DNA of 64,000 nt from Micromonospora sp. Llam0 (GTDB taxonomy: Bacteria; Actinomycetota; Actinomycetes; Mycobacteriales; Micromonosporaceae): the NCBI RefSeq assembly GCF_003751085.1, contig NZ_RJJY01000001.1, positions 2,542,001-2,606,000 of the forward strand. The letters are read 5' to 3'. Numbering within the stretch: the first letter of the stretch is position 1; each line of letters begins with the position of its first letter. A model generated the notes under the pieces. It ran no database searches. It was not told the origin of the DNA and was given only the letters and a program-made list of their open reading frames with translations. The position numbers and the translations under genes were made by a program. Below are positions 1-64,000 of this stretch, one piece after another.

Positions 1-1420
1 CCCGCAGGAACGCCTTTATCTCGCGCAGCGCAGGTGCGGCTCCTCTGGCGACAACGCAAGCGCAGATCACCTCGCCCATGACCGCGTCGGGCAACCCGAC
101 CACCGCGACGTCGTGCACGGACTCATGCGCGAGTAGGTGGTTCTCCAGCTCCTGCGCTGGAACTTTCTCGCCACCGCGATTGATCTGGTCCTTGTTGCGA
201 CCCTCGACGATCAGATGCCCGGTCGGCAGCACTCGAACGATGTCTCCGGTGCGGAAGAATCCGTCCGGCGTGAAGGACCGCGAGTCGGCCCGATAGTAGC
301 CACGCAACGTGTACGGCCCTCGGGTCAGCAGCTCACCGTCGACCACCTGGATCTCGTCGCCAGGGCTGAGCGGCCTCCCCTGCGTACCGATGACAAGGTC
401 CTCGGGGTCGTCTAGGCGGGTGAAGTTCAGCAGCCCTTCCGCCATCCCGAAAACCTGCTGCAACGCGCAACCCAGCGTGCCGCGCACCCGCCCGGCGGGC
501 TCCGGGTTCAGCCGGGCACCACCCACCTGCAACAGCTCCAGACTGGACAGGTCAGCACCCATCACGTCCGCGACGTCCATCCACAGCAATGCCACCGGTG
601 GGACGACCGCCGTCACGGTGATCCGCTCACGCTCGATCAGCGCGAACGCGGTGTCCGGGCTCGGATCGGGCGCGAGCACCACCGTGGCGCCCGCGGCCAT
701 CGCACCGAGCAACCCGGGGCACGCGAGCGCGAAGTTGTGGGCCGCCGGCAACGCGACCAGGTAGCGGGTTTCTTCGGTGAAGCCGCAGACCTCAGCGCTC
801 GCCCGCGCGTTGTACAGATAGTCGTTGTGCGTACGGGGAATGAGCTTGGGGGTCCCGGTCGTACCGCCGGAAAGCAGAAACAGTGCCGGTTCCGCCGGAT
901 CGGCCGCGGGTAGCGACACCGGCTCGCCCTGCGGCACGGCCTCGAACTCACCCGGCTCGCCGACAACGAACACGTGCCGCACAAGCCCGCTTACCGTGCG
1001 CGCCAGCGCTCGATGCTCAGGGCTCGAACCGTCGATGATGTAGATCGCTGCCTGGCTCAGCTCGCACAACGGCACGATCTCGCTTTCCCGGTGCGCGGGC
1101 AGCGCCAGCACGGGCAGCAGCCGGGCACGCAGCAACGCGAACAGCACCGCCACAAACTCCGGCACGTTCGGCAACTGCACCAGCACTCGCGTGTACGGGT
1201 CCAGTCCGATCCCGGCCAGCCCTGCGGCGAGGCGGTCGGCCCACTCGTCAAGCTCCGCCCAGCTCCACCGCCGCCCGTCTGCGGCGATCAGCACCGTACG
1301 GGCAGGATGCTTGCGGGCACCTTCGCGCAGCAGCACATCGAGTGGCTCACCGGTCCAGTAGCCGGCCTCACGGTAGTGGTCCGCTAGGTCTTGCGGCCAG
1401 GGCTTACAGCCATCCAGCAT
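1..1420 (-). CDS. Salicylate-AMP ligase (aryl acid adenylating enzyme), 3' end outside window
   Basis: Activates an aryl acid as the acyl-adenylate and loads it on the ArCP of the NRPS encoded at 25944-32225. Translating the minus strand from the ATG at 1420-1418 gives about 473 residues of the EntE/DhbE/YbtE/PchD family. Visible are the A3 loop SGGTTGTPK, the substrate motif [13 protein letters not shown], and [16 protein letters not shown]. In the DhbE structure work, a Cys (instead of Ser) in the HN...CPG motif and a Leu (instead of Val) in EGL(L/V)N mark salicylate rather than 2,3-dihydroxybenzoate enzymes. Both salicylate-type residues are present. Homologues have about 525-565 residues, so some 55-90 residues are missing beyond base 1. 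The start codon shares one base with the stop of the upstream ATPase gene, so the genes are translationally coupled. No salicylate synthase is in the window. Confidence 0.93.
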
Positions 1421-2886
1421 CAGGGTCCTCCTGTCACGCAGATCGCGTCCGCGGGCGTCCGATCGGCCGCCGGGCGTTCGAAGGTTCCGTTCTCGAGGGT
1501 CAGCACGTCGTCCGAGATCCGCCGCACGACGTGGTTGTCATGGGTGATCGAGAGGACGGCCAGCGCCTGGGTGGCGCACAGCTCCCGCAGCAGGTCGAGC
1601 ACTGCCGCCCGGGTCACCGAGTCCAGCGCCGAGGTGACCTCGTCGCAGATCAGCACACGGGGCCCGGCGGCCAGGGCCCGGGCGATCGCGACCCGCTGCC
1701 GTTGCCCGCCGGATATCTCACCCGGTAGCCGCCGGGCATGGTCGACGGGCAGCCCTACCAGCCCGAGTAGCCGGTCGATCTCCGCAGCGAGCTCGGTCCG
1801 GTCCGTGATGCCGCGCAGCAGTTTCAGCGGGCGGACGAGCGCCGTCTGGATCTGCTGCCCGGGATGGAGGGTGTCGGCCGGGTTCTGGGGCACCAGTTGG
1901 ATCGCCGCGCGCTGCCGGGTCGGGCGTCGGCGGGCGCTCGACGCGAGCGGCGTTCCGTCGAGCAGCAACTCGCCGCCCTCCGGCCGGTGCAGCCCGGCGA
2001 GGCACCGGGCAAGCGTGGTCTTGCCGCTGCCGGACGAGCCCACCACCGTCAAGCACCGCCCGGGGCGCAGCTCCAAGTCGACACCGTCGAGCACGCGCCG
2101 GCCCGCGTATCCGGCTTGCAGCCGCCGGGCCCGCAGAATCGGCGGTTCCAGTGGCGGCTCCGGCCGGGGGCCGGGTTGCGCGACGGCGGCCACGAGCGCG
2201 GCCGCCGCCGGGGACTCGGGTCTGGTCAGGACATCCGCCGCCGGCCGGTGCTCCACCACCCGGCCGGCGTCGAGCACCACGATCTGGTCGACAAGGCCCG
2301 CGGTGGAGTCGATGTCGTGTGTGATCCAGAGCAGTGCGACTCCGTCGGCGCGCAACCTGCCCAGCTCCGCCCGGAACTCCTCGACCGCGCGAGGGTCGAG
2401 CGCCGACGTAGGTTCGTCGAGGACCAGCAGGCGAGGGTTGCGTGACAGCGCCACGGCGAGGGCGCCGCGTTGCTGCTGGCCGCCGGAGAGCTCGGCGGGT
2501 CGGCGGTCGCCTAGGGCGGGGTCCAGCCCGGCACGGCGTAGCACGTGGTCGACCGGTCCTCGCAGACCGGCGGCGCTGCGCACGGTGGCCCGCAGTTTCC
2601 GGTACGGGTTAAGGCTGCTGCCGGGGTCCTGCCCGACGTAGCCGACGCTGTCCGGCCGGTGGCGCAGGACGTCGCGGCCGTCGACGGTGACGGTTCCCCC
2701 GGCGTGCCAGATTCCGTCACGCAGCCGGCCGAGGCAGGCCAGCGCCAGGGTGGTCTTGCCCGAGCCCGACGCGCCGACGACGGCCACCGCCGCGCCGGGT
2801 CCGATTTCGAGGTCGACGCCGTCGATGATCGGGCCTGCGGCCGCGTACAGGCGCAGGCCGTTGACTTTGACCAGCGGCTCGCTCAT
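1420..2886 (-). CDS. Double-ATPase subunit of Opp/Nik-type ABC importer (DppD-DppF fusion)
   Basis: Cytoplasmic ATPase energising the peptide/nickel-type importer encoded by the next three upstream genes. The 488 residues contain two complete nucleotide-binding domains. The first has Walker [12 protein letters not shown], signature LSGGQQQR and Walker [13 protein letters not shown]. The second has [19 protein letters not shown] and [12 protein letters not shown]. Most family members use two separate ATPases of about 330 residues, so this is a fused DppDF. I chose the ATG at 2886 (MSEPLVKV). It overlaps the permease stop as ATGA, and the upstream extension is Arg-rich shadow sequence. The neighbouring ligase and exporters suggest that the cargo is a metal-metallophore complex, as for staphylopine CntABCDF. 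That substrate is inference. Confidence 0.93.
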
Positions 2887-3668
2887 CGCGCCACCAGAGC
2901 ATCGGAGGCAAGATTCAGCGGTACGGTCAGCGCTGCGATCAGCGCCAGCGGTGCCAGCAACGCGACCGGCTGTAGTGCCGCGCCCGGCAATGCCTGCGCG
3001 ATCAGGGTCCCCCAGTCGGTGCCGGCGTCGCCCAGTCCCAGGAAACCGGCGGCCGTGACCATGTAGAGCGACACCACGAACCGCAGTCCGGCGTCGGCGG
3101 CGACGGTGCCGGCGATCAGCGGCAGGACTTCCTGGCGCAACACCCAACCCCAGCGCTCACCTCGTGCTATCGCGAGTTCGATGTGCGGGCGCCCGATCAC
3201 GAGGCTGGCGGCGGCGTAGGTGACCCGTGCGGTGAGTGGCACACCCGCCGCGGCGACCGCGATGACCACGCCGCGCCGGTCGGGCAGTGCGGTCAACGCG
3301 AGGACCAGCACCAGAATCGGCGGCAGCGCGACTACGGCGTCGAGCGGTCGCAGCACCAGACCTTCGAGGATCCGCCGGTGGGCTCCGGCGAACGCGGCGA
3401 CCACCCCGGCCGTCACGCCGAGCCCCACCGCGACCGCTGTGCCGAGTGCCGTGGTGGCCAGCATCCCGGGCCCACCGTCCAGGATGCGCGACAACACGTC
3501 CCGGCCGAGATGATCGGTGCCGAGCCACGCCTGCGGTCCTGGACCCGCATATGGCGCCCCCACCGGCGTGATCGCCGGATACGGCGCGAACACGGGCCCG
3601 GCCAACGCCACGACGACCACCACCGCAGCCACCGCCGTCAACGGCACAACCCGGGCGCGCGGCGTCAT
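2883..3668 (-). CDS. Opp/Nik-type ABC importer permease (DppC-like)
   Basis: Inner-membrane permease subunit of 261 residues, close to the usual 280-300. The N-terminal hydrophobic segment VAAVVVVVALAGPVFAPY is followed by WLGTDHLGRDVLSRIL, the typical DppC/NikC signature. A further set of hydrophobic helices follows, with an EAA-type cytoplasmic loop around RGERWGWVLRQEVLP. It pairs with the DppB-like permease just upstream to form the channel. The stop overlaps the start of the fused ATPase (ATGA). The gap to the upstream permease gene is 40 bases. Confidence 0.92.
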   Translation of the reverse strand: MTPRARVVPLTAVAAVVVVVALAGPVFAPYPAITPVGAPYAGPGPQAWLGTDHLGRDVLSRILDGGPGMLATTALGTAVAVGLGVTAGVVAAFAGAHRRILEGLVLRPLDAVVALPPILVLVLALTALPDRRGVVIAVAAAGVPLTARVTYAAASLVIGRPHIELAIARGERWGWVLRQEVLPLIAGTVAADAGLRFVVSLYMVTAAGFLGLGDAGTDWGTLIAQALPGAALQPVALLAPLALIAALTVPLNLASDALVAR

Positions 3669-3708
3669 GCCGACCTCCGACGAGTTGCCACGGGGAAAAC
3701 ATGCGGGG

Positions 3709-4653
3709 TCATGTCAGCCTCTTGCGGGTAGTGACCGTGCCGGCGATGTCGGCGGCGACCATGCCGAGCAGGGTGACGGTGCCGAGGACCATGGCCACGG
3801 CCTGCGCGACCGGCAGATCACCGCCGCGCACCGAGGTGACCAGCAGCGCGCCGATCCCGGGATAGCCGTAGACCAGCTCGACCAGCACCGCGCCGCCGAC
3901 CATCGAGGTGGCCGTGACCGCCCAGACCTGGGCCGCGGTCGGCAGGATCGCGGGCAGCACGGCTTGCCGGAAGACCGTCGCCGCGGCGACCCCGTTCAGG
4001 CGGAGGAACTCCACGTGCGGTGCCTTCAGGGCGGTCACGGTCGCCGCCCTGATGATCCGGGCGGCGTAGGCGAGGCTGACGATCACCAGACTGGCCACCG
4101 GCAGGACCAGCACCTCCGGGTGCGCCAGCGGGCTGTCCCCCGCCGGTACGAGCGAGACCGCGGGAAAGAGGCCGAGGCCGATGGCGAGGGTGGTCACCAG
4201 CACGGCGGCGATGACGAACTCCGGCACGGAGACGGTGAGCAGCAGCGCGGCCGATCCGGCCCGGTCGGCCGCCGATCCCCGGCGGGCACCGAGCAGGACC
4301 CCGACCAGCAGGGACAGCGGGATCACTACGACGACCGCGGTGGCGGTGAGGACCGCCGAGTTGGCGAGCCGGCCCGCTACCATGCCGGCCACCGGTTGCC
4401 CCGTCGCGGAGGTGCCGAGATCGCCGCGGGCCAGGCCGGCCGCCCACTCCTGGTAGCGGTCGAGCACCGGCCGGTCGAGCCCCAGCCGCTCCCGGGCCTG
4501 CTCGATTTGCTGCGGCGAGGCTCCGGGACCGAGCCTCGCCGTCACCGGGTCGCCGGGCAGCACGTCGGTGCCGACGAAGACCACCAGGGAGAGCAGCATC
4601 AGGAGCAGGACCACCGAGCCGGCCCGGCCGGCGACATAGCGTGCCGGTCTCAT
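3709..4653 (-). CDS. Opp/Nik-type ABC importer permease (DppB-like)
   Basis: Inner-membrane permease of 314 residues and partner of the DppC-like protein. The start at 4653 (MRPARYVAGRAG) overlaps the stop of the binding-protein gene as ATGA. It is followed by a first helix, VVLLLMLLSLVVFVG, and then DVLPGDPVTARLGPGAS. That arrangement of helix 1 plus a PGDP loop marks DppB/OppB/NikB proteins. The EAA-like loop is visible as LNGVAAATVFRQAVLPAILP. A longer open frame to 5052 exists, but its extra N-terminus is Arg/Gly-rich antisense noise. Confidence 0.92.
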   Translation of the reverse strand: MRPARYVAGRAGSVVLLLMLLSLVVFVGTDVLPGDPVTARLGPGASPQQIEQARERLGLDRPVLDRYQEWAAGLARGDLGTSATGQPVAGMVAGRLANSAVLTATAVVVVIPLSLLVGVLLGARRGSAADRAGSAALLLTVSVPEFVIAAVLVTTLAIGLGLFPAVSLVPAGDSPLAHPEVLVLPVASLVIVSLAYAARIIRAATVTALKAPHVEFLRLNGVAAATVFRQAVLPAILPTAAQVWAVTATSMVGGAVLVELVYGYPGIGALLVTSVRGGDLPVAQAVAMVLGTVTLLGMVAADIAGTVTTRKRLT

Positions 4654-6254
4654 CCGGTGAAGCCGGTCTTGCCCAGCCAGGGATACTTCGGCGACTCGCG
4701 GGCGAGCAGACCGGTGAGGTTCTCCCTGGCGACGCTGAGCACGTCGCCGCGTCCCCACGCGATCCAGTTGCCCCGGTCGGTCATGACCTTTTGCGCGGTG
4801 GCCCACGCCTCGGCCCGCTCCTGCTCGACCGTCGCAGCCAGGGCCACGGCGACGGCGGTTTTGAGCTCGTCGTCCGGGAAAGCGAGTGCCTCGAACGCCG
4901 CCGACCGGGTGTAGGTCACCGAGAGCGAGAACGGCCCGAGCGGGAAGGTGACGGCGTCGGCGGTGGCGAGCCCTTCCTGGTCGAAGTACTCGGTCAGGCC
5001 GACGATGTCGACGCGGGCGTCCAGGCCCAGTTCCTTGAGCTGCGCAACCCACAGCTCGGCGGAGGAGTTGAGGCCGACCTCGTATTCGGCGGTGCGTACC
5101 ACGAAGGGCTTGCCGGCCGCTCCGGCCTGCTCGATCAGCTGCTTGGCCTTTGCCACGTCGCGGGCGACGGGGTCGACGCCCTCGACGAAGTACTTGGCGC
5201 CGTAACCGAACAGGTCGTTGGCGACGGCGCCGTAGCCGAGGAAGACGGCGTCGACCAGTGCCTGCCGGTCGATGCCGGTACGCAGTGCGGTCCGGACGCG
5301 CGGGTCCTTGATCAGCGGCCGGGTCATGTTCAGCACGAACCCGTATGTGGTGCGGGCCTTCTCTGCGGCGGCACGGATCTGCAGGCCGGCGCCGGGCGAG
5401 CCGGACTTGGCTGTGGCGTACGGGATGTCGGAGGCGTAGTCGGCCTGCCCGCCACGGACGGCGTTCACCCGGGCAGCCGGGTCGTCGAGGCTGAGTAGGA
5501 CGATCTCGTCGGCGTACCCGGGGCCGTCCCAGTAGGTCTCCACCCGGGAGAGGCGGGCCTCGCTGCCGGCCTGGTAGGCGGTGAGCTGGTAGGGGCCGGT
5601 GCCGACCACCTTGCCGGTCTCGAAGGCCGCCGTGCCCTCCTTGATCACCATGAGTCCGGCGCTGGCGAGGACGGTGGCGGGATCGCCGACGGGCTGGATC
5701 GTCGGCACCACGACGGTGTGGGTCCCGGTGGCGCGGGCTGCGGCGAGGTTGAAGTACATCGACAGCTCGCTCGGCATCTGCCGGTCGGGCGCGGCGCGGT
5801 GTTTGAAGGTGTGCACCACGTCGGCGGCGGTGAACGGTGATCCGTCGTGCCAGGTGACGTCGGTGCGCAGGGTCAGTGTGCAGTCCGTGCCCCCGGCGCC
5901 CGGCTCTGCCTTGAGCGCCAGCGCCGGCTGTGGGCTGCCGTCGGCGAAGACGAAGAGTTGGTCGTAGACGAGCAGAAACCGGGCGAGTTCGACCGGCGTG
6001 GTGCCGACGGTTGGGTCGAGCGATTCGTTCGCGCCGCCGCCGGCGAAGGCCAGCCGTACGGTGCCACCGCGGTGGGGGGTGCCGGTCGGCTCGCCGTCAC
6101 CGGCGCGGGTCAGGGTGGCCGCGGTGCCGTCGCCGCCCGTGCAGGCGGTGAGCAGCGGCGTGGCTACGGCTGTGGCTCCGAGCCCGATCATGCCGAGGAG
6201 GCGACGACGGGTGAGGGGTCCGGTGACGAGGGGCGGCATCGAGTTATGTGCCAT
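4650..6254 (-). CDS. Family 5 solute-binding lipoprotein of Opp/Nik-type importer
   Basis: Extracytoplasmic receptor (534 residues) delivering substrate to the permeases encoded downstream. The N-terminus has a twin-arginine-like run TRRRLLGMIGLG, a hydrophobic core and a lipobox LLTAC, so a lipid-anchored protein is expected. The family 5 fold is shown by TLTLRTDVTWHDGSPFTAADV, VVGTGPYQL and the KDPRVRTALRTGIDRQAL segment. The family includes DppA, OppA, NikA and the metallophore receptor CntA. Sequence alone does not say which ligand is bound. Start ATG at 6254 lies only 10 bases after the stop of the exporter gene, so it is cotranscribed. An AT-rich stretch with ATGATT lies just before this start but matches a Zur-type operator weakly. 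Confidence 0.93.
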   Translation of the reverse strand: MAHNSMPPLVTGPLTRRRLLGMIGLGATAVATPLLTACTGGDGTAATLTRAGDGEPTGTPHRGGTVRLAFAGGGANESLDPTVGTTPVELARFLLVYDQLFVFADGSPQPALALKAEPGAGGTDCTLTLRTDVTWHDGSPFTAADVVHTFKHRAAPDRQMPSELSMYFNLAAARATGTHTVVVPTIQPVGDPATVLASAGLMVIKEGTAAFETGKVVGTGPYQLTAYQAGSEARLSRVETYWDGPGYADEIVLLSLDDPAARVNAVRGGQADYASDIPYATAKSGSPGAGLQIRAAAEKARTTYGFVLNMTRPLIKDPRVRTALRTGIDRQALVDAVFLGYGAVANDLFGYGAKYFVEGVDPVARDVAKAKQLIEQAGAAGKPFVVRTAEYEVGLNSSAELWVAQLKELGLDARVDIVGLTEYFDQEGLATADAVTFPLGPFSLSVTYTRSAAFEALAFPDDELKTAVAVALAATVEQERAEAWATAQKVMTDRGNWIAWGRGDVLSVARENLTGLLARESPKYPWLGKTGFTG

Positions 6255-6264
6255 GTTGTTCCAA

Positions 6265-8004
6265 TCATTTTTGGGGTGTAGCGGTTCGGATGATCTGCCA
6301 GCCTTCGGCGGAGCTGCGTTCGTGCCACAGCGCGGCGTACCGGCCGCCGAGGGCGAGCAGTTCCTCGTGGGTGCCGCGTTCGGCGATCCGGCCACGGTCG
6401 AGGTAGAGGCTCTGGTCGGCGTCACGGATGGTGGCGAGGCGGTGGGCGATGACCAAGACGGTCCGGTCGCGGGCCAGGTCCCGTACCGCTGCGGTGACCG
6501 CGGCCTCGTTCTCGGCATCCAGGGCCGAGGTGACCTCGTCGAGCAGCACGATCGGGGCGTCCTTGAGCAGGGCGCGGGCGATGGAGACGCGCTGGCGCTC
6601 GCCGCCGGACAGCAACGATCCGCCCTCGCCGACCCGGGTCTCCCAGCCGTCCGGCAGCCGGTCGACCACCTCGTCGAGGCGGGCGGCCAAGGCTGCGGCG
6701 CGTACTTGTTCCTCGTCCGCATCGGGGCGGGCGATGCGGACGTTGTCCCCGATCGTGCCGTCGAAGAGGTAGACGTGCTGAAAGACCATGGCGACGCGGG
6801 AGGCCAGCGCACCGGAGCCGATCGCGCGGACGTCGATGCCGCCGATCGTGACGGATCCGGTGCCGGTGTCCCAGAAGCGCCCGGCGAGCCGGGTCAGGGT
6901 GGTCTTGCCCGAGCCGGACGGGCCGACCAGAGCGGTCAGAGTGTTCGCCGGCAGTGTCGCGGTGATCTCGTGCAGCACGGTCTCGTCGCCGTACCCGAAT
7001 GTCACGTCGGTGAAGGCGACTTCGTTGGTGGCGGGGGTCCGCGGCTCGGCGGGCTCGGTCAGCGGCTGCACGTCGAGGACCTCGCTGATCCCGCGCAGCG
7101 AGACTCGGGCCAGCGCGGTGCCCTTGCCGAAGGCCGCCAGCATGCTCATCGGCTCGACGAACCGTACGGCGAGGACCAGGATGACGATCAGAGCGGCGGG
7201 CTCGATGCCGCCGGTGGTCACGAGCAGCGCGCCGACCGCGATCACCAGCAGGAGGCCGAGCTGCACGATCACCATGAAGAGCGTGTTCGGGCCGGTGGTG
7301 CCGTCCAGCTCACGCAGGTTGGCGTCGCGATTCTCGATCAGCGCCTCATCGAGCCGCTGCCAGCCTTCCTGCTGTCGTCCCGCCGCGCGCAGCACATGCT
7401 GGGCACGGGCGAACTCGACGATCCGGCCGGCCAGTTCGGACTCCGTGGTGTCGATCGCCTCGTACTCGGGGCGGACCGCCCGCTGCACCCGCCGGTAGGC
7501 CCAGACGCCCAGGGGGACGAACGCGACCAGGGCCAGCGCCATCCGCACGTCGACGAAGAGGACCGCGACGAAGACGGTCAGCGGGGTGACCACGACGGTG
7601 ACGAGTTGGGAGAGGATGGTCCCCGGGACCGTCATGAGGATGGCGGTGGACTCAGTGACCAGTTGCACCAGGCGGCCCTTGGTGGCCTTGTCGAACCAGC
7701 CGAGCGGGATCCGGGTCGCGTGCTCGCCGAGCCGGTGCAGCACTCCACCGGCGAGGTTCACGATGCCCACCCGGTAGGCGCGGGCCTCCGTCCACCAGCG
7801 CACGACGCCGTGCAGGACGGCGAGCACCCCGGCCGATACGATCCAGGGCCACGCCGCATCGACGTCGCCGCCGAGCAGGGCACGCAGGATCGGGAAGAGC
7901 GCCGCGAAGGTCAGACCCTGTAGGACTCCGGCGAGGGCGTAACCGGCGATCTGGCCGCGCAACCCGTGGCCGCGCCCGAGAATCCGATCAAGATCGTCGA
8001 TCAC
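6265..8004 (-). CDS. Exporter-fold ABC transporter half, YbtQ/IrtB-like
   Basis: Fused membrane-ATPase subunit of 579 residues. The transmembrane half (about residues 1-320) is followed by an ATPase half with [25 protein letters not shown] and [11 protein letters not shown]. It starts with GTG at 8004, overlapping the stop of the preceding exporter gene (GTGA), so the two should form a heterodimer. YbtPQ and IrtAB have the exporter fold yet import ferric siderophores, so direction of transport cannot be read from the fold. Position directly between siderophore synthesis genes and an importer supports a metallophore cargo. Confidence 0.92.
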   Translation of the reverse strand: MIDDLDRILGRGHGLRGQIAGYALAGVLQGLTFAALFPILRALLGGDVDAAWPWIVSAGVLAVLHGVVRWWTEARAYRVGIVNLAGGVLHRLGEHATRIPLGWFDKATKGRLVQLVTESTAILMTVPGTILSQLVTVVVTPLTVFVAVLFVDVRMALALVAFVPLGVWAYRRVQRAVRPEYEAIDTTESELAGRIVEFARAQHVLRAAGRQQEGWQRLDEALIENRDANLRELDGTTGPNTLFMVIVQLGLLLVIAVGALLVTTGGIEPAALIVILVLAVRFVEPMSMLAAFGKGTALARVSLRGISEVLDVQPLTEPAEPRTPATNEVAFTDVTFGYGDETVLHEITATLPANTLTALVGPSGSGKTTLTRLAGRFWDTGTGSVTIGGIDVRAIGSGALASRVAMVFQHVYLFDGTIGDNVRIARPDADEEQVRAAALAARLDEVVDRLPDGWETRVGEGGSLLSGGERQRVSIARALLKDAPIVLLDEVTSALDAENEAAVTAAVRDLARDRTVLVIAHRLATIRDADQSLYLDRGRIAERGTHEELLALGGRYAALWHERSSAEGWQIIRTATPQK

Positions 8005-9782
8005 CGCACGATGCCTTCCGTATGCGTGGTCTGCTGGGCACGCCACATGCGTGCGTAGAGGCCGTCCTGGGCAACCAGGTCGTCGTGCGTCCCGCGTTGG
8101 ACGACCCGGCCGCCGTCGAGCACCACGATCTGGTCGGCGAAGCGGATCGTGTGCAACCGGTGCGCGATGACCATCAGGGTGTTGCCTTGCGCGGCGAGTT
8201 CGCCGAGCGCACGTTGGACCGCCGCTTCGCTGTGCGGGTCGGCGTGGGCGGTGGCCTCGTCGAGGATCACGATCCGTGGGTTCTGGACGATCGCGCGGGC
8301 GATGGTGATCCGCTGCTGCTCACCGCCGGACAAGTCGCCGCCGCCAGCCCCGAGGACGGTGTCGTAACCCGCCGGCAGTGCTTCGATCACGGCGTGGATC
8401 TGGGCCCGCCGGGCCGCCGCCACCACGTCGTCGTCGCTCGCCCGCGGCGAACCGATCCGGATGTTCTCCCGTACGGTGTCACGCAGCAGAGCGATGTCCT
8501 GGAAGACGATCGCCATCGTCCGCAGCAGGTCGGCGGAGTCCAGCTCGCGCAGGTCTGCGCCGCCGAGGCGGATAGCGCCCGAGTCCACGTCCCAGAAGCG
8601 GGGCAGCAGCCGGGCCAGGGTGGTCTTGCCGGAGCCCGAGGGGCCGACGATTGCGGTCACCGTCCCGGCCGGGATGGTGAACGAGACGTCCCGCAGCACC
8701 GGGTGGCCGGGGTCGTACCCGAAGGACACGGCGTCGAACTCAATGTCGGTCCCGGCGGGGGTCACCGGCATGACCGGTTCGGGCAGGCCGGGCTCGGCGA
8801 AGACGCGCCCGATGCGGGTGGCACCGAGCTGACCCTCGCGGTAAAGGTTCGCCATTGTGCCGATGTGTAGGGCGGCGGCCGGCACACCCAGGCCAAGGAC
8901 GAGGAACGCGACGAGGCCGGCCGGTGTCGCCCAGCCCGCCGGGAGCATCGCGGCACCCGCGGCGGTCAGGAAGACGATCATCGAGGCGGGCGAGAAGAGG
9001 ACCGTCAGCAGCGAGGTCGATCGGCCCATCTGGGACATCCAGCGCAGGCAGACCTCGACCATGGTGTCGACCGCACGGGTGTAGCGGTCGAACGCGCGGG
9101 CACCGGACCCGTACGACTTGACCACTTCGATGCCGTCACCGAGCTCGACCGCCGCCGCCGCGAGGTCGCTGGTGGACCTGTTCCAGGCGGCGATGTTCTC
9201 CCGGTAGCCACGGCTCATCGCCGGGGCCGCGATCATCATGCAGGCGATAAGGTAGCCGACGAAGACTAGGCCCAGACGCCAGTCGACGGCCAGGAGGTAG
9301 CCCACGGAGACGACCGGGGTCAGCACGGCGGGGATCAGATCGGCGGGCAGGTGCGCGACGAGCAGGTGCATGCGTTTCACGTCGTCGGTCATCGCCTGTT
9401 TGATCGCACCCGAGCCGCTGGTGGTGAACCAGCCGAGCCGGACGCCGGTGAGGTGCCGGGCGAGCCTCGATCGGATCAGGTACTTGAAGTTGGCGTCGGC
9501 GACGTGGCAGATGGCGATCGCCGCGACGTAGAGACCGAAACCAATGGCGGCACCGGCCGCGCCGACCGCCGTCCAGACCCAGATCGCCCGGTCGCTGCCG
9601 TCCTGCAGGAGCTGCCGGGAGATCTCGACGAGCGCGACGTAGGGCATCAGCCGCAGGGGCACGGAGAGTGCCGAGAGCAGTGCGCCGAAGACCAGGCGCC
9701 CCCGCACCAACGCGAGGGTCCGGCCCAGGGCACCCTTGGTGACCAGATTGTCCGGTCCACTGTCCGGTGGAGCGGGGTTCAA
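8001..9782 (-). CDS. Exporter-fold ABC transporter half, YbtP/IrtA-like
   Basis: Partner of the downstream half-transporter, 593 residues. Transmembrane part first, then ATPase with [24 protein letters not shown] and VILDEATAHAD. Walker B is normal, but the D-loop reads AHAD instead of SALD. An open frame extends to a TTG at 9884, which would overlap the divergent TetR gene. I prefer the TTG at 9782, because GGAAGG sits about six bases upstream and the protein then begins a short way before the first membrane helix. It is the first gene of the minus-strand operon that runs to the window edge. Confidence 0.88.
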   Translation of the reverse strand: MNPAPPDSGPDNLVTKGALGRTLALVRGRLVFGALLSALSVPLRLMPYVALVEISRQLLQDGSDRAIWVWTAVGAAGAAIGFGLYVAAIAICHVADANFKYLIRSRLARHLTGVRLGWFTTSGSGAIKQAMTDDVKRMHLLVAHLPADLIPAVLTPVVSVGYLLAVDWRLGLVFVGYLIACMMIAAPAMSRGYRENIAAWNRSTSDLAAAAVELGDGIEVVKSYGSGARAFDRYTRAVDTMVEVCLRWMSQMGRSTSLLTVLFSPASMIVFLTAAGAAMLPAGWATPAGLVAFLVLGLGVPAAALHIGTMANLYREGQLGATRIGRVFAEPGLPEPVMPVTPAGTDIEFDAVSFGYDPGHPVLRDVSFTIPAGTVTAIVGPSGSGKTTLARLLPRFWDVDSGAIRLGGADLRELDSADLLRTMAIVFQDIALLRDTVRENIRIGSPRASDDDVVAAARRAQIHAVIEALPAGYDTVLGAGGGDLSGGEQQRITIARAIVQNPRIVILDEATAHADPHSEAAVQRALGELAAQGNTLMVIAHRLHTIRFADQIVVLDGGRVVQRGTHDDLVAQDGLYARMWRAQQTTHTEGIVR

Positions 9783-9809
9783 GGCAGGTCCTTCCGTGGT
9801 GCCTAAGCC

Positions 9810-10628
9810 GTGGCGGCGGCCCAGATAGAATTGGAACGGTGTTCGCTTCTGGGCGACTGTACCCAGACGAGAGAACTTAGGCAACCCTTACTTGCCAACC
9901 GAGTTTATACGGAGAGTGACATCATCGCCGCAAAGAAGTACAAGACGGGTGTCACGCGTGACGCGGTGGTCGCCACCGCCCTGGAGTTGACCCGGCAGCA
10001 CGGCCTCTACGGCTGGTCCGTCCGCGACCTGGTCAGGACACTCGGAACGGCCACCTCCGTGGTCTACACAAAGGTCGGCGGCAAGGATGCGCTCTGCGAG
10101 GCGGTGGTCGAGCACATCTTCACTACCCGTGAGTTGATTGTGACCGACGACACGCTCAGCTGGCAGGAGTGGTTCAGCCGGACACTCCTCACCCTTCGCG
10201 ACGAGCTGGTGCACTATCCCGGGGTGGCCAAATGGCTGACCCTGCACGGTGGACCCACTTTTCCGGGTGTCGTCGAGCGTCTGCACCACGGCCTGGAGAA
10301 GCTGCATGCCGCCGGCTTCGGTGACAACTCGGTTTCGGTCTTCGCGGCCCTGATGACCACGGCGATGAACACCATCACGATGTCGGACGAGCGGCTGAGC
10401 CACGAGGACGACGGCCCCCGCGATCACAGCCACATCGTCGACCGGCTCTCGCGCGCTGGCGACGAGAGCACGGCGGTCCAGGGCTTCCGCGAGTTCAGCG
10501 AGGGTTTCGCCGGCCGGCCGGAGGAAAGCGACGCGCGTCGCCGGGAGTACTTCACTCTCGTCATCACCACGATGATCACCGGCTTCGCCCACCAAGGGGA
10601 CGGCATGCGAACGAACAGGCCAAACTGA
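9810..10628 (+). CDS. TetR-family transcriptional regulator
   Basis: DNA-binding repressor, probably of the divergent transporter operon or the biosynthetic operon. The helix-turn-helix is clear: TRDAVVATALELTRQHGLYG, then SVRDLVRTLGTATSVVYTKVGGKDAL. A ligand-binding C-terminal part follows, with WLTLHGGPTFPGVVERL. The total of 272 residues is longer than usual because the only standard in-frame starts are GTG 9810 and TTG 9831, which add about 40 unlikely residues before the HTH. The real start may be nearer 9919, after GGAGAGTGAC, where only a non-standard ATC codon is in frame. An iron-box-like sequence lies inside this disputed N-terminal stretch, which favours the shorter protein. Function as a local regulator is inferred from position. 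Confidence 0.85.
   Translation: MAAAQIELERCSLLGDCTQTRELRQPLLANRVYTESDIIAAKKYKTGVTRDAVVATALELTRQHGLYGWSVRDLVRTLGTATSVVYTKVGGKDALCEAVVEHIFTTRELIVTDDTLSWQEWFSRTLLTLRDELVHYPGVAKWLTLHGGPTFPGVVERLHHGLEKLHAAGFGDNSVSVFAALMTTAMNTITMSDERLSHEDDGPRDHSHIVDRLSRAGDESTAVQGFREFSEGFAGRPEESDARRREYFTLVITTMITGFAHQGDGMRTNRPN
9877..9895. promoter_or_regulatory. DtxR/IdeR-like iron box between exporter operon and TetR gene
   Basis: The 19-mer TTAGGCAACCCTTACTTGC resembles the DtxR/IdeR/DmdR consensus TTAGGTTAGSCTAACCTAA. Reading the reverse strand, I count about 12-13 matches of 19. It lies about 95 bases upstream of the exporter start at 9782, and upstream of the likely true TetR start. Iron-dependent repression of one or both directions is inferred. 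Confidence 0.45.
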
Positions 10629-50077: not shown

Positions 50078-50119
50078 GGGTTTCCCTTCGAGTTGCACGG
50101 TCCTGTTTCATCGGAGCGA

Positions 50120-50929: not shown

Positions 50930-50944
50930 TGAAAATGAATTTCA
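50930..50944. promoter_or_regulatory. Best Zur-like box, upstream of secreted metal-site proteins
   Basis: TGAAAATGAATTTCA differs from TGAAAATGATTTTCA at one position. It is the closest match in the window and an obvious AT island. It lies 89 bases before the GTG of the small secreted protein. Confidence 0.8.
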
Positions 50945-52109: not shown

Positions 52110-52137
52110 GTAACGGTTGCCATTACCATAATGGCAA
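52110..52137. promoter_or_regulatory. Two overlapping Fur-type palindromes upstream of the regulator
   Basis: GTAACGGTTGCCATTAC (52110-52126) is an imperfect palindrome. Overlapping it, arms TTGCCATTA (52117-52125) and TAATGGCAA (52129-52137) form a perfect 9-bp inverted repeat around CCA. Position ten bases before the regulator start fits autorepression. The sequence differs from the other four boxes. Confidence 0.65.
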
Positions 52138-52149
52138 CGAGGAAGGTCG

Positions 52150-53799: not shown

Positions 53800-54102
53800 T
53801 CAGTGGTCGTCCCAGTGCCCGTCGTGCCGGGTGTGTCGATGTCCGTCGTGCACGTAGTCCACGTGTCCGTCGTGCGGCACCGCCACGTGCCCGCACCCTT
53901 CACGGTGCTCGTGGTCGTGCCGGTCGTGAACCTGGTGACCGCCGGGCTCGCATTCGTCGAAGTGGCCCTGGTGCTCACGGTGCAGGTGACCGTCGTGGGC
54001 GTAGTCGACGTGTTCCTGGTGCGGTACGGCGACGTGACCGCAGTCCGGCCCATGTCGGTGCTGGTGTGCCTCGTGTTGCCGATGCATCTGTTCGGTTGCC
54101 AC
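53800..54102 (-). CDS. His-rich small protein, probable zinc binder
   Basis: 100 residues from GTG 54102 (GGAGGAGGGG before it). About a quarter of the residues are His. Two copies of CGHVAVPHxxHVDYxHDGHxH are separated by an acidic DECEPGGHQVHDRHDHEH stretch, and the protein ends DGHWDDH. No signal peptide, so cytoplasmic. Repeated Cys/His/Asp clusters strongly suggest binding of several divalent metal ions, as a store or chaperone. Convergent with the truncated exporter, about 57 bases apart. A related short HVDYVHDGHRH motif is, as I recall, common in actinobacterial hypotheticals. Confidence 0.85.
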   Translation of the reverse strand: MATEQMHRQHEAHQHRHGPDCGHVAVPHQEHVDYAHDGHLHREHQGHFDECEPGGHQVHDRHDHEHREGCGHVAVPHDGHVDYVHDGHRHTRHDGHWDDH

Positions 54103-59653: not shown

Positions 59654-60016
59654 TCATTGGGCCGGCGCGGTGACCACCGACAGTTCCAGGATCGGCGGCA
59701 GCGGTGCCACTCCGGGTCCACCGTCGAGCACCCATCCGATCAGGTCATCGTCGATCGCCGGGGCGTCGACCAGCCCGAACCAGACCGGACGGGCGCCTGC
59801 CCGACGGGTCGCCGGGGTGGGATGCACCACGATCACGTTGGCCTGGTCGCAGACGTCCAGACACTGGCTTGTGCGTACCCGGTGCCGCCCGGTCAACGCC
59901 TCCCGCAGCCGCCGCAGTTGGCCGTCGTGGTCCACGGCCGGGCGTTTGGACGGGTTGCCGCAGCAGCAGTCCCGGCACACGGTCACCGTGCATCCGACAG
60001 GCCCGGTCGTTGTCAC
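59654..60016 (-). CDS. Small thioredoxin-like (2Fe-2S) ferredoxin protein
   Basis: 120 residues with VTVCRDCCCGNPSKRPAVDH and TSQCLDVCDQANVIVVHPTP, the Cys pattern of thioredoxin-fold ferredoxins (C-x2-C-C-C and C-x3-C). GTG 60016 overlaps the stop of the FhuF-like reductase (GTGA), so the two are coupled. It may pass electrons for siderophore-metal reduction. It resembles the gene at 38953-39288. Confidence 0.8.
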   Translation of the reverse strand: MTTTGPVGCTVTVCRDCCCGNPSKRPAVDHDGQLRRLREALTGRHRVRTSQCLDVCDQANVIVVHPTPATRRAGARPVWFGLVDAPAIDDDLIGWVLDGGPGVAPLPPILELSVVTAPAQ

Positions 60017-60855
60017 TGGCGTGTCTCCTCGTCATCATGACCCCATGGGTCGGGTCGTCCGGCACGGTCACGGCGCCAGCGATGCAGCCGAGGGCACGCT
60101 GTGCAGTGTCCGGCCTCGTCACCGCCGCTGAAGGGGTCGGAGTGGATCCGGTACAGCAGGCAGCAGGTGCCGTTGATCAGCAGGATGTCGCTGGCGGCTA
60201 CCGCTGTATCGTCCAGGCGGGGCCGGGTGCGCAGCGGCACACGCCTGGCGAGGCGGTCGGTGAGCCGGCCGGCCGCAATCCATGCGGTCGCCGGCTCCGG
60301 ACCGGCGGCCAGGGCGCGGCGGTGGATCTGGTCAGCGACGTGCCCCCACAGGCCGGGCAGGCCGTAGCGGGTCAGGGCAGCGACATACGCGAATACCGGG
60401 GCGAGGAAGGCTGTGATCTCGTCGGCCGCGGCGTCGAGCAGGTCGCCGTCGGCCGGCAGGTCGGGTTCGCCGAGGTGGCGCAGGCGTGCCCCGGGTACGG
60501 CGATCGCGTCGAACCACCGGCCGTCGGGGTGCACCCGGGCATCGACCGGGCCGTCGCGGAGGGTCCATAGTGCGCTGTGTGCGGTGACGGCGGCGGCGAT
60601 CGGTCCGGCGACGGCGTGGGCGAGGTACAGTCCGTGGAACGCCCCGGCGACGCCGGGATCGCCGCAGGCGTCGGTGGCGAGCATCGCGTCGACCGAGCGT
60701 TGGACCGCGTCGACGCGGCCGAGGCCGGTCAGGTCCACCCACTCCCGCCCGTTCGCAGGGTCGGGTGGTGCGCTGCTCAGCTGCAGGTCGCCGCAGCGCG
60801 CGGTCACGGCGGCCAGCAGCTGGTCGAGCGTCCCGACGCGGTCGGCTCCGGTCAC
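60013..60855 (-). CDS. FhuF-like (2Fe-2S) ferric-siderophore reductase
   Basis: 280 residues. The C-terminal cluster-binding motif LINGTCCLLYRI followed by GHCTACPR (C-C, then C-x2-C) is the hallmark of FhuF and related IucA/IucC-C-terminal-domain proteins. The helical N-terminal part with HGLYLAHAVAGPIAAAV fits. It reduces ferric siderophore in the cytoplasm to free iron. GTG 60855 overlaps the binding-protein stop; its own stop overlaps the ferredoxin gene. Confidence 0.87.
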   Translation of the reverse strand: MTGADRVGTLDQLLAAVTARCGDLQLSSAPPDPANGREWVDLTGLGRVDAVQRSVDAMLATDACGDPGVAGAFHGLYLAHAVAGPIAAAVTAHSALWTLRDGPVDARVHPDGRWFDAIAVPGARLRHLGEPDLPADGDLLDAAADEITAFLAPVFAYVAALTRYGLPGLWGHVADQIHRRALAAGPEPATAWIAAGRLTDRLARRVPLRTRPRLDDTAVAASDILLINGTCCLLYRIHSDPFSGGDEAGHCTACPRLHRWRRDRAGRPDPWGHDDEETRQ

Positions 60856-61922
60856 TGGAACCGGTCGGGGTGCAGCGCCCGGGCGATCTGCGCCGCAGTG
60901 TCGGCGTTGCGGATTCCGCTGAACAGACCGGGGAAGGGCACGACGACGAACCGCTGGTCGCGTACGGCGGCCACGTCGGACAGCGCGGGGGCGGCGAGGT
61001 ACTTGTCGATCTCCTTCTGTCCGTCGGCGACGGTCATGTCCGCGCCGCAGCAGGGGGCTAGCACGATGACGTCGGGGTCGCGGCGTACGAAGTCCTCGAC
61101 GGAGACGCTGGCCTGGCGGGTGGCGACGTCCGCGTAGGCGTTAGTGCCGCCAGCGATGTCGATGATCTCCTGGGTGATACCGCTGCCGCCCTGGACCGAT
61201 ACGGTCCCGTCGTCGCGGAGGGTGCCGACGGCAACGCTGACCGAGGTGTCTGCACCGCTGACGCGCTGACGGGTGTCGTCGACGGTGGCTTGCATCGCGG
61301 CGATGATCTCGGCCGCCCGGTCCGCTGCGCCGAGGAGGTCACCGACCTGGGTGATGTCGGCGTAGGTCGTTTCGAACGTGGCCTGCGTCAGCTGCAGCGG
61401 GTTGCCCTCCCCCGGCTCCCCCGCTGGACACCATTCACCGAAGACGTAGCTTTCGATACCCTGCTGCGCCAGGTCGTCCTGGCTGCCGAGGACGGCGGGG
61501 GTGAAGGCGTCGTTGAAGGCGCTGAGCACGAAGTCCGGAGACAGCGAGTAGAGCCGTTCCTTGCTGGGATAGTCGTCGTTGTACGGCACATCGGCCTGTG
61601 CTGCGGCGTACTCGGGCAGGATCTCGTTGTCCAGGAAGGCCGAGCCGATGAGCCGGTCGCTGGCACCGAGTGCGTGCACCAGCTCGATGGCCGGGTGGAA
61701 GACAGCGAAGATTCGCTCTGGCGAGGTCTCCAGGGTGATCGTGCGCTGGCACGTTTCTACGGTGATCGGGCCGGTGGCTGCAGTCGGCGCGGCGGCGGGG
61801 TCGGCCCGGTTGGAGTCGGAGGTGCTGGTGCAGCCGGCGACGGCGACGACGCCGGTGAGGGTGGCTGCGACGACAGCGCGTCGGCTGCGGGTGGGCGCTG
61901 TCACGGTTGGTCCTGTGGTCAT
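60852..61922 (-). CDS. Siderophore/metal-binding lipoprotein of FecCD-type importer
   Basis: 356 residues. N-terminal SRRAVVAATLTGVVAVAGC gives a lipobox with the lipidated Cys. The binding fold has ERIFAVFHPAIELVHALGAS, RLYSLSPDFVLSAFNDAF and a long central helix, like class III (FepB/BtuF) receptors. The acidic CPAGEPGEGNPLQL and APCCGADM stretches add extra Cys residues. ATG 61922 overlaps the second binding-protein gene. Ligand not predictable; position suggests a ferric or zinc metallophore. Confidence 0.9.
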   Translation of the reverse strand: MTTGPTVTAPTRSRRAVVAATLTGVVAVAGCTSTSDSNRADPAAAPTAATGPITVETCQRTITLETSPERIFAVFHPAIELVHALGASDRLIGSAFLDNEILPEYAAAQADVPYNDDYPSKERLYSLSPDFVLSAFNDAFTPAVLGSQDDLAQQGIESYVFGEWCPAGEPGEGNPLQLTQATFETTYADITQVGDLLGAADRAAEIIAAMQATVDDTRQRVSGADTSVSVAVGTLRDDGTVSVQGGSGITQEIIDIAGGTNAYADVATRQASVSVEDFVRRDPDVIVLAPCCGADMTVADGQKEIDKYLAAPALSDVAAVRDQRFVVVPFPGLFSGIRNADTAAQIARALHPDRFQ

Positions 61923-62884
61923 GGTCGCTCCGGTTGATCGGTGGGTTCGATGCCTTGGCTGGCGGGTCCGGCGTCCTGGCCGATGAGTCCGGCGTCAATG
62001 GGCAGATCCGCGAATGCGGTCGCGAGGTACTCGAGCGCGTCGATGTTGTTGGCGCCTTCGACGGTGTCGCGTAGCGGTAGGACGACGGTGGGCAGCTCGC
62101 CGACGCGCCACGCGGTGATCTCGGGTCGGGCCCGCAGGCGGTCGAGCTTGTCCGCTACGTCGAATGGGCCGTAGTCGCTGACGAGCAGCACGTGTGGGCG
62201 GGGTCGCGTGGCGAGCTGGTGCCAGGGCATCCAGCCGTAGGTGAAAGGCAGATCGGTTGTCACGGGTTCACCGCCGACTCGACGCAGCAGATCGGTCACC
62301 ACGGCGGCGCTACCGGCGGTGAGCACGGCGTCGTGGCGGGGCATGTCGAGTACGAAGACCCGTCGTGGTGGGTTGCGTCGTGTTCGCGAGGCGACGGCGT
62401 CGATCCGGGTACGCCAGCCGGCGGCGATCGTCTCGGCCCGGTCGGCGACGCCGAGGGCGTGGCCGAGGGCGATGGTGTCGTTGATCGTCGAGTGGATCGT
62501 GGCCGGTGTGATGACGGGTGCGTCCTCGAGTGCGGCCTCGGTGAGCAGGAACGAGCGGATGCCGCGTCGGGCCAGTGCGGCGCGGGCGCCGAGGGCGCCG
62601 TCGCCGAACGCCTCGTTGTCGCCGGCGACTACCAGGTCGGGGCCGTGGGCAAGGATGTCGGCGAGTGTTGGGAAGCGACGCGGTAGCAACGAGATCTGTG
62701 CTCGGGTAGTGGCGGGCAGCGTCGACCAGCCGCCGTCGGTGTCGTTGGCGGCGACGACGCGGTCGACGGTGCCCAACGCCGCGAGCAGGGACAGTGGGCC
62801 GCTGTCGATGGTGACGACCCGCCGCGCCGGTGCCGCTGCTTCGCCGACGAGGCCCGGCCGGTAGGTCAGCTCGTCACCGGGCAT
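61919..62884 (-). CDS. Class III binding-protein-like protein without signal peptide
   Basis: 321 residues from ATG 62884 ([20 protein letters not shown]). It shows a FepB/BtuF-like fold: VVTIDSGPLSLLAALGTVDR, FPTLADILAHGPDLVVAGDN, RRIPGIRSFLLTEA-type helix and RPHVLLVSDYGPF. No hydrophobic leader or lipobox is present at this start, and the upstream frame is ATPase shadow. It would stay in the cytoplasm unless an unusual export route exists. It overlaps the ATPase by 11 bases and the lipoprotein start by 4. Confidence 0.8.
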   Translation of the reverse strand: MPGDELTYRPGLVGEAAAPARRVVTIDSGPLSLLAALGTVDRVVAANDTDGGWSTLPATTRAQISLLPRRFPTLADILAHGPDLVVAGDNEAFGDGALGARAALARRGIRSFLLTEAALEDAPVITPATIHSTINDTIALGHALGVADRAETIAAGWRTRIDAVASRTRRNPPRRVFVLDMPRHDAVLTAGSAAVVTDLLRRVGGEPVTTDLPFTYGWMPWHQLATRPRPHVLLVSDYGPFDVADKLDRLRARPEITAWRVGELPTVVLPLRDTVEGANNIDALEYLATAFADLPIDAGLIGQDAGPASQGIEPTDQPERP

Positions 62885-63701
62885 TGTCGGCTCCGGTCGG
62901 TGTGTCCGGGACCGGATGCGACGGCGGGGGTCCGAGTGGGGCGTACACGAGTTGGGTTCCTCCGGTGAGTGGGTTGACGACGGTGGCGGCTCGGATGCCG
63001 AAGACCCGCTCGACCAGAGCGGGTTCGATGATCTGCGCCGGGGGGCCGCTGGCGACCAGCGCGCCGGCGTACAACACGTGCACGGCGTCGCAGTACGCCA
63101 ACGCGAGGTTGAGGTCGTGCACGGCGGCCAGCACGGTGAGCTCCAGCCCGCGCAGCAGACGCAGGACCTCGTGCTGCGCGGCGACGTCGAGGTGGTTGGT
63201 GGGTTCGTCGAGCACGAGCAGATCGGCGCGTTGGGCCAGCGCGCGGGCAATGAGTACGCGTTGACGTTCGCCACCGGACAGCGTGGCGAAGGCCCGGTGC
63301 CGCAGATGGGAGGCGTCCACCCGGGTCAGGCAGCGGTCGAGCCAGGCGAGGTCGGCTGCGGTGTCGGGCTCGAATGCCCGCTTGTACGGGGTCAGGCCCA
63401 TGGCGACCACGTCGGCGACGGTCAGTTCGAGCGCGTGGTCGCGTTCCTGCAGGACGACGGCGAGCCGACGGGCCAAGGCACGCGGGCGTAGCTGGGGAAG
63501 GCTCGTACCGTCGAGCCGGACGTCGCCGGAGTCGGGGCGCACGACGCGGTAGCCGGCGCGCAGCAGCGTCGTCTTACCGGCGCCGTTCGGCCCGAGGATG
63601 CCGGTTATCGTGCCGCGTCGTACGGTGATCGAGACGTCCCGCACGAGGTCCCGGCCGCCGACGTGCACGGTGACCGTGTCGAAGTCGAGCGCGCCGGTCA
63701 C
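62874..63701 (-). CDS. FecE/FepC-type ABC importer ATPase
   Basis: 275 residues from GTG 63701, overlapping the permease stop (GTGA). Walker [19 protein letters not shown], signature [17 protein letters not shown], Walker [14 protein letters not shown] and H-loop [10 protein letters not shown] are all intact, typical of siderophore and cobalamin importers. Drives the adjoining FecCD permease. Confidence 0.93.
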
Positions 63702-64000
63702 GCGGTGACCCCGAGCCCGCTGCGGCCGCTGCGGCGCAGCAGCAGCCAGAGGAAGAACGGGCCGCCGCACAACGCGGTGAGCACTCCCAGGGGCAGCTCC
63801 GCCGGAGCGGCCACGGTGCGGGCCGCGAGGTCGGCCAGGACGAGGAACGACGCGCCGGTGAGCATCGCCACCGGCAGCACGGCCCGGTGGTCGGCTCCCA
63901 TGACGAGCCGCACGGCGTGCGGGGCCATCAACCCGACGAAGCCCACAGCGCCCACCCCGGCGACCGCCACGGCCGTCATCAGCGCGCAGACGCCCAGCAG
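63698..64000 (-). CDS. FecCD/BtuC-type permease, C-terminal part (start outside window)
   Basis: About 100 codons reach the right edge. [20 protein letters not shown] is the diagnostic FecCD loop (GFVGLxxPHxxR), followed by [15 protein letters not shown] and [18 protein letters not shown]. The N-terminal two thirds lie beyond 64000. First visible gene of the right-hand uptake operon. Confidence 0.93.

Follow-up and report, generated by a model that had tools for sequence, protein, structure and literature searches.

The stretch of 64,000 nucleotides of Micromonospora sp. Llam0 described here, called the window throughout and always meant at its full length, is probably a zinc-starvation island, that is, a group of genes that would make, import and exploit a zinc metallophore and would spare zinc within the cell. 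This zinc reading is supported by the agreement of boxes of the Zur type, a Zur paralogue, an operon joining a COG0523 GTPase to a ribosomal protein L31, and secreted proteins with HxD and HxH motifs, and by the repetition of this grouping in other families. The gene content, the box sequences, the duplication and the recurrence in other genomes were all directly observed in this analysis. Gene order was drawn from codon-usage gene calls together with Pfam and NCBIfam scans. On the minus strand (2-9884) lie a ligase, an Opp-type importer and pair 1 of the ATP-binding cassette (ABC) genes; on the plus strand (11008-32225) are found a type II thioesterase (TEII), an Irp3-like protein, a glyoxalase-like protein, the nonribosomal peptide synthetase (NRPS) gene NRPS1, a protein like saccharopine dehydrogenase (SacDH), two methyltransferase-type proteins, AsnB, a cytochrome P450 and NRPS2. 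To the right of NRPS2 come ABC pair 2, an L32 paralogue, methyltransferases, the COG0523-L31 operon, ABC pair 3, two proteins of the choice_anch_M type and the Zur paralogue, and after this an ABC subunit that is truncated and a His-rich gene; genes for recombinases and transposases follow, and last a FecCD-type importer. The caller's frames at 9888-10592, 42087-43004 and 53839-54144 were discarded as antisense, the opposite strand holding the TetR-like gene, ABC3a and the His-rich gene, respectively.

Zur boxes were sought with the pattern TGANAATNATTNTCA, generalised from motifs quoted in PMC5472717. Several Zur-like boxes had been proposed in a preliminary description of this DNA, and there are three strong ones, each with one mismatch to TGANAATNATTNTCA, and two weaker ones, one of them a site at about 37925 (3 mismatches) near the L32 paralogue. 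The other four are listed here without strand:

10966..10980: Zur box CGAGAATGATTGTCA, upstream of the biosynthetic operon
41797..41811: Zur box TGAAAACGATTGTCA, upstream of COG0523-L31, its centre 28 nt ahead of the start codon
41928..41942: weaker box of Zur type with 2 mismatches, upstream of ABC pair 3
50930..50944: Zur box TGAAAATGAATTTCA, ahead of the surface-protein genes

At no more than one mismatch, the 3 boxes of the window compare with a mean of 0.0 in 10 block shuffles, and the 8.9-Mb genome holds 7 boxes against 0 for the pattern read backwards. The presence of at least three of the seven in 64 kb has a binomial P of 1.3e-5, a test that is not blind, the window having been chosen for its zinc genes; five of the seven lie within 50 kb of the two Irp3 genes of the genome. 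Outside the window, two boxes belong to a second cluster, locus B, where they stand at the Opp operon and at the surface-protein genes; another precedes a gene that is ZnuA-like by eye, 3.2 kb from the best-scoring Fur-family gene (of Zur type), and the last precedes a second gene for L31 of type B (L31B) at 4.83 Mb, adjoining choice_anch_M genes. The ZnuA-like gene and L31B are expected Zur targets, and it is because of this gene company that the seven boxes are argued to be Zur sites and not Fur sites. Under ample zinc, zinc-loaded Zur would occupy the boxes at 10966, 41797 and 50930, perhaps also 41928, and block transcription, a repression that would be lifted when zinc falls. Zur repression is a prediction from sequence, as are the structure and metal of the product and the direction of transport.

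The genes expected to economise or capture zinc, and the methyltransferase genes beside them, are the following:

37978..38157, plus strand: L32 paralogue with an altered Cys motif (PF01783)
39325..40218, minus strand: methyltransferase, third gene of the COG0523-L31 operon, with overlapping ends
40215..40478, minus strand: ribosomal protein L31 type B, without Cys (NF002462, 133.7 bits; cut-off 86)
40475..41776, minus strand: COG0523 GTPase (nearest model NF047431, 316 bits of 375 required)
45652..46383, minus strand: methyltransferase, 75.5% identical to the locus B copy
46457..50098, minus strand: secreted choice_anch_M / TIGR03773 surface protein (NF038134, 418.8 bits; cut-off 55) with three H-x-H-x-x-W motifs
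50158..50841, minus strand: small secreted protein of the choice_anch_M kind (NF038134, 22.6 bits, below the cut-off) with one H-x-H-x-x-W motif

The Cys-free L31 and the COG0523 protein of the preliminary description are both present, their reading frames overlapping within one operon, and so are the H-x-H-x-x-W proteins that it listed. Its L32 paralogue is likewise there, with the correction that four Cys are kept, the first pair being C-x-C where the genome's other L32 has C-x-x-C. Inspection by eye of the C-terminal ends of the window's surface proteins showed no sortase signal. Type B L31, the L32 paralogue and COG0523 would free or direct intracellular zinc, and the HxD/HxH surface proteins would retain the metal at the cell wall.

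The Fur/Zur-family regulator noted earlier is confirmed as a Zur paralogue, since it matches the Zur structures of S. coelicolor and M. tuberculosis far above Fur in a search of Fur-family structures:

51678..52100, minus strand: Zur paralogue (3mwm 150 bits, 2o03 148.5 bits, best Fur 60 bits)
52116..52138, no strand: perfect palindrome GTTGCCATTACCATAATGGCAAC before the Zur paralogue, unlike the Zur box and a single site in the genome

The His that shortly precedes the second CxxC, which we take to be a regulatory zinc ligand in S. coelicolor Zur, is replaced by Cys in this protein and by Tyr in the paralogue of locus B. Among the proteins aligned, this His is kept by the seven nearest homologues (68-158 bits), one of which is the other Zur of the genome (L001, C1:4098159), and it is also present in 3mwm and 2o03; three more remote members of the Fur family (41-52 bits) likewise lack it. 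The idea that the in-locus paralogues are dedicated second sensors for both loci, with another zinc threshold or another metal, and that the window paralogue perhaps controls itself through the palindrome at 52116, is a doubtful one. If true, it would describe a self-regulated metal-acquisition unit, with ABC pair 3 sensing zinc and iron, duplicated and diverged in one chromosome. As an operator repeated elsewhere the palindrome was rejected, there being only one copy in the genome, and the backward control pattern having 3 forward matches at up to 3 mismatches.

The recurrence of the grouping has been followed through Irp3-like genes, which occur in 23 of 393 genomes of the class (taken as actinobacterial from named relatives). 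Twenty-two of the 23, including the genome studied here, were carried on, G069 being below the cut-off; second fragments of one gene were dropped, which left 46 of 47 rows for L31 and 38 of 39 for CobW_C, and the expected counts assume a uniform spread and ignore contig ends. Within 50 kb of Irp3 lie 36 of the 104 Zur boxes, in 16 of the 22 genomes (1.7 expected), 12 of the 38 COG0523 genes, in 8 genomes (0.6 expected), and 4 of the 46 L31 genes, in 4 genomes (0.75 expected, P 0.007). Proteins of the choice_anch_M family are restricted to 2 of the 22 genomes (our own and G213), some copies being near Irp3 in both. In several families, L31, COG0523, Opp or surface-protein genes are neighbours of Irp3. 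Six genomes were mapped and, since they were mostly chosen for nearby boxes or neighbours, the maps illustrate the arrangement and give no estimate of frequency. For example, G276 has the order L32-L31-COG0523-methyltransferase-Opp-ligase-box-NRPS2-NRPS1-...-ABC pair-salicylate synthase; G124 has COG0523-box-L32-L31-COG0523-...-Fur family, adjoining NRPS genes; G213 has Opp genes plus COG0523-boxes-choice_anch_M; and in G319 an ABC pair, a His-rich gene (60%), COG0523 genes and L31 lie among six boxes. Opp genes were found at the mapped loci of G276, G213 and G185.

The biosynthetic genes and the regulator beside them are as follows:

2..1420, minus strand: stand-alone ligase, probably a salicyl-AMP ligase (AMP-binding, 226 bits), running off the window
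9810..10628, plus strand: TetR-like regulator (TetR_N 23.4 bits; cut-off 24), divergent from ABC pair 1, start uncertain
11008..11747, plus strand: type II thioesterase (Thioesterase, 169 bits), start set by inspection (caller: 10971)
11744..12829, plus strand: thiazolinyl imine reductase, Irp3-like (PF21390, 62 bits)
12816..13529, plus strand: glyoxalase-like protein (Glyoxalase_3), SrbJ counterpart by family
13526..18967, plus strand: NRPS1, with Pfam domains TubC docking-Cy-A-MT-PCP-TE, the TE with GYCLG
18964..20013, plus strand: saccharopine-dehydrogenase-like protein (PF03435), SrbE counterpart by family
20010..21011, plus strand: methyltransferase
21008..22405, plus strand: second methyltransferase-type protein, frame interrupted, homology resuming in another frame at 22335-22736
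22850..24688, plus strand: asparagine-synthase-like amidotransferase, AsnB (Asn_synthase, 288 bits)
24697..25917, plus strand: cytochrome P450
25914..32225, plus strand: NRPS2, with Pfam domains ArCP-Cy-A-PCP-Cy-A-PCP

The salicylate-NRPS genes of the preliminary description are thus in place, with the correction that the gene for salicylate synthase is found outside, just beyond the left end of the window (L008:18668-19879, next after the ligase; Chorismate_bind 238.8 bits). The heterocyclization motif DxxxxDxxS is present in all three condensation domains of the two synthetases, and a motif search of these domains gave no HHxxxDG. In the TE of NRPS1, the GYCLG at residue 1585 puts Cys in the place of the nucleophile. 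The best solved matches of NRPS2 are linear gramicidin synthase A (838.6 bits, by three stretches), dihydroaeruginoic acid synthetase (795.5) and BmdB (637.8), with Irp2 lower (336 bits), and those of NRPS1 are 6lta (674 bits, named nonribosomal peptide synthetase) and BmdB (628). The closest clusters having both AsnB and P450 are those of Kribbella sandramycini L020 (67% and 61% identity, respectively), Allokutzneria L085 (61% and 60%), Streptomyces ISL-12 L013 (AsnB 77%) and S. cacaoi L016 (AsnB 75%). The Kribbella locus carries a perfect Zur box between its Opp operon and TEII-NRPS2, and L013 has a Fur-family gene and a COG0523 gene after NRPS2; L085 and L016 have no Zur box at up to 2 mismatches. 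Under zinc shortage the cell would make a salicyl-(oxazoline/thiazoline)-N-methylthiazolidine metallophore of the sorangibactin/coelibactin type, its predicted differences being an extra amidation (by AsnB) and an oxidation by P450.

The frame 21008-22405, once a candidate for a protein without a clear Pfam family, was reassigned to a tandem methyltransferase with an interrupted frame; the switch of its homology near 22340 (within 21008-22736) is either a real frame change or a sequencing error. Behind NRPS2, at 32238-32858, there are the 3' end of a group II intron (RF00029, 53.4 bits) and an HNH fragment (PF21368), adjoining a transposase-like remnant.

The transport genes announced in the preliminary description, namely four exporter-fold sets (the fourth being the truncated half at 52204-53742), an Opp/Nik-type importer and a FecCD-type importer, were all recovered:

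1420..6239, minus strand: Opp/Nik-type importer by Pfam (fused ATPase 1420-2886, permeases 2883-3668 and 3709-4653, SBP_bac_5 4650-6239)
6265..9884, minus strand: exporter-fold ABC pair 1 (ABC_membrane and ABC_tran)
34062..37849, minus strand: exporter-fold ABC pair 2
41982..45580, plus strand: exporter-fold ABC pair 3
59654..64000, minus strand: FecCD-type importer operon with FhuF-like protein (importer 60852-64000 and on past the window end), membership in the island doubtful

The second subunit of ABC pair 3 is nearest to IrtB and YbtQ among half-size chains (345 and 318 bits), full-size ABCB1 chains scoring higher by two stretches. The subunit of ABC pair 2 at 34062-35936 has 7 His in its first 40 residues, and its matches among structures are SAV1866 (290 bits), MsbA (284) and 6p6i_A (277), the last presumably being YbtP. 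The loaded chelator would be imported by the IrtAB/YbtPQ-like ABC pair 3 (perhaps also iron-responsive) and/or by the Opp importer. The window scan found no Zur box at the FecCD-type operon. At 59654-60855 there are a Cys-rich protein of 120 residues, with no Pfam match, and a protein of 280 residues with no Pfam or NCBIfam match, whose C-terminal CC...CxxC recalls FhuF. The right flank (L010:1604-15870) encodes two YcaO proteins and an S15 peptidase, perhaps a short precursor peptide (6987-7133) and probably a major facilitator superfamily protein; it further has an ABC pair, a Fur-family gene and a second importer of the FecCD type, and resembles a cluster for a ribosomally synthesised and post-translationally modified peptide beside metal transporters.

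Locus B (C1:1.691-1.735 Mb), the second Zur-boxed cluster of the genome, lies 0.8 Mb from the window and contains Opp genes, the same His-rich gene, an ABC pair, a ligase, Irp3, P450 and TEII. Its NRPSs are 45-50% identical to those of the window, its Zur paralogue 89%, and its surface proteins 85% and 81%. By blastn, window positions 45646-52217 align collinearly, in three pieces of 78-86% identity, with B 55055-48478; positions 52217-54219 match B 21000-18998 at 98.95%, and 54295-57174 match B 13835-11217 in pieces. The right part of the window (45.6-57.2 kb) is therefore a collapsed copy of locus B, without its 27.5-kb biosynthetic core and Opp operon, and the two levels of identity suggest an old duplication followed by a recent transfer or conversion of the piece with these two genes:

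52204..53742, plus strand: truncated ABC subunit half (ABC4), a 99% copy of the full gene in locus B with about 65 first residues missing
53800..54102, minus strand: His-rich protein (counted from its Met, 27 of 95 residues are His), with an identical copy in locus B

Both genes are present because of the duplication, and ABC4 is probably dead. His-rich proteins had been counted among the zinc genes of the locus; they do exist, here and as the N terminus in ABC pair 2, whereas the protein at 53800-54102 is derived from the duplication and is not specific to the locus, having 353 relatives, several among the 120 listed being named threonine dehydratase. A relative (48%) adjoins the second L31B and its Zur box (L115:5789-6488; C1:4827789-4828488), so that this protein or a relative stands near Zur-boxed genes at three sites of the genome. 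Between the copies, the ratio of nonsynonymous to synonymous substitution rates (dN/dS) is 0.15 for Zur, 0.23 and 0.24 for the surface proteins and 0.21 for the methyltransferase, which indicates that these duplicated genes are being kept under constraint.

Several observations weigh against the zinc reading. Among 77 named loci the Zur pattern matches in 14 of 26 non-actinobacterial ones (backward control 1), probably at Fur boxes, which look alike, so that the motif alone does not name the metal; within the DNA examined, only 19 of the 51 actinobacterial loci match (backward control 0). Seven of 24 Irp3 loci, including that of G082, of the same family, have no Zur box within 50 kb. The minus-strand operon (ABC pair 1, Opp, ligase and salicylate synthase) has no Zur box at up to 2 mismatches and adjoins the TetR-like gene, one tailoring methyltransferase has an interrupted frame, and the FecCD/FhuF-like genes point to iron. 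Finally, ABC pair 3 has, at 9 nt from its weak Zur box, a sequence that resembles an iron box:

41901..41919, no strand: iron-box-like site, 14/19 to an IdeR/DmdR consensus, 63 nt before ABC pair 3

It is accordingly quite possible that the locus is of mixed metal, the metallophore also serving iron or cobalt, zinc and iron shortage both triggering some promoters, and the TetR-like protein and the FecCD/FhuF-like operon being on the non-zinc side; the boxless ABC1-Opp-ligase operon would suit this, and in P. aeruginosa pyochelin has been reported to carry cobalt under Zur control (PMC11481552). The iron scan used a 19-bp IdeR/DmdR consensus, by which 41901 is the only 14/19 site in 143.5 kb around the window and 36627, inside ABC pair 2, the sole other window site reaching at least 13/19. 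Whole-window shuffles contain 0.2 such sites each (20 shuffles), and a single site is thus near chance. Zur boxes are accompanied by sites of the same score in G319 (joined-stretch positions 26671 and 49415; C1 ~5038671 and ~5061415) and in Kribbella L020 (9105), and L085 has one in its Opp/TEII promoter (9204). A scan reaching 150 nt from each of 50 Zur boxes, drawn from 29 loci, gave 5 intervals (4 distinct sites) at 14/19, whereas 60 local shuffles averaged 0.05 and never exceeded 1; this test was devised after the sites were seen, and no interval reaches 15/19. Further points against a mixed-metal locus are that locus B has no site at 13 and that G124, G276, G213, G027 and G185 have none at 14, and that the FecCD operon is separated from the rest of the island by recombinase and transposase genes. 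Strong iron boxes (at least 15) are found in 6 of the 51 named actinobacterial loci, L032 alone of the six also having a Zur box. Dual zinc/iron control of ABC pair 3 is possible on these grounds.

Two other explanations turn on the history of the region. The island might be decaying, its pathway partly or wholly broken and its zinc genes retained for other reasons, as the interrupted methyltransferase, the truncated ABC half, the loss of the core and Opp genes from the right part, and the intron end and HNH fragment behind NRPS2 (32.2-32.9 kb) would suggest; the frames of the NRPSs, P450, AsnB, Irp3 and glyoxalase are nevertheless open over their Pfam domains and the duplicated genes are constrained as described above, which makes decay unlikely. 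That unrelated zinc and siderophore genes are merely neighbours is very improbable in view of the co-location counts near Irp3: the neighbourhood is indeed rich in transposases and recombinases, and G082, mapped over 40 kb only, shows none of the zinc genes, but similar genes stand beside the Irp3-NRPS loci of G276, G124, G213, G319, G185 and G027, and twice in the genome studied here. The zinc-starvation island remains the preferred reading.

Links of this kind between metallophores and zinc have been described in other bacteria. Sorangibactin of Sorangiineae MSr11367, for which ten genes have been experimentally confirmed as necessary, has a cluster that shares salicylate synthase, a stand-alone ligase, a 7-domain and a 5-domain NRPS, SacDH-like, two methyltransferases, P450, Irp3-like and glyoxalase-like proteins and a TE with a Cys nucleophile (PMC10127202). 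All ten genes have counterparts in the window region by family, one methyltransferase being frame-interrupted; the window adds AsnB, the Opp importer, Zur boxes and zinc genes, and the word Zur has 0 occurrences in that paper. In Corynebacterium, the Zur regulon of C. glutamicum includes COG0523, surface-anchored proteins and ribosomal paralogues (PMC2823685), and the zinc-binding wall proteins ZnuE/F/G and CmrA of C. diphtheriae are likewise secreted and bear HxD and HxH motifs (PMC12445094); those of the window, which belong to a metallophore locus, show no sortase signal by eye. The zinc island of M. avium ssp. paratuberculosis also has clustered Zur boxes (11 promoters), sid NRPS genes, IrtAB-like mptABC, COG0523 genes and an L31 paralogue (PMC4298942); it carries an ESX system, whereas the window has an NRPS of coelibactin type by domain order, the Opp importer and HxD/HxH proteins. 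Coelibactin of Streptomyces coelicolor (SCO7676-92), rightly named in the preliminary description as a Zur-controlled relative, is made by a Zur-repressed NRPS cluster with P450, ABC genes and four putative metal-transport genes, SCO7677-80 (PMC5472717; PMC3430247), and has been called a zincophore, its product not having been isolated (PMC3430247; PMC10127202). Compared with it, the window has a glyoxalase, which coelibactin lacks (PMC10127202), and AsnB, and it also unites L31, L32, COG0523, a Zur paralogue and surface proteins in one locus. Among the listed titles and abstract openings of the open-licence literature, none describes a cluster of coelibactin type that also includes L31, COG0523 and surface proteins. 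That such a synthetase sits amid dense Zur boxes in several families, and at two places of a single genome, lends genomic support to the zinc role; such loci are new candidate producers, and in genome mining zinc metallophore clusters could be told from iron ones by the L31, COG0523, surface-protein and Opp genes found alongside. A Zur-boxed locus with zinc-sparing and surface-capture genes is supported, and novelty of its combination as such is not, given coelibactin, the M. avium paratuberculosis island and the other genomes; novelty is limited to the exact set. The zinc-linked metallophore island is real and of a kind already known, of which this is a variant whose new features are the AsnB chemistry, the two loci in one genome and the divergent in-locus Zur paralogues without the histidine that their seven nearest aligned homologues keep.

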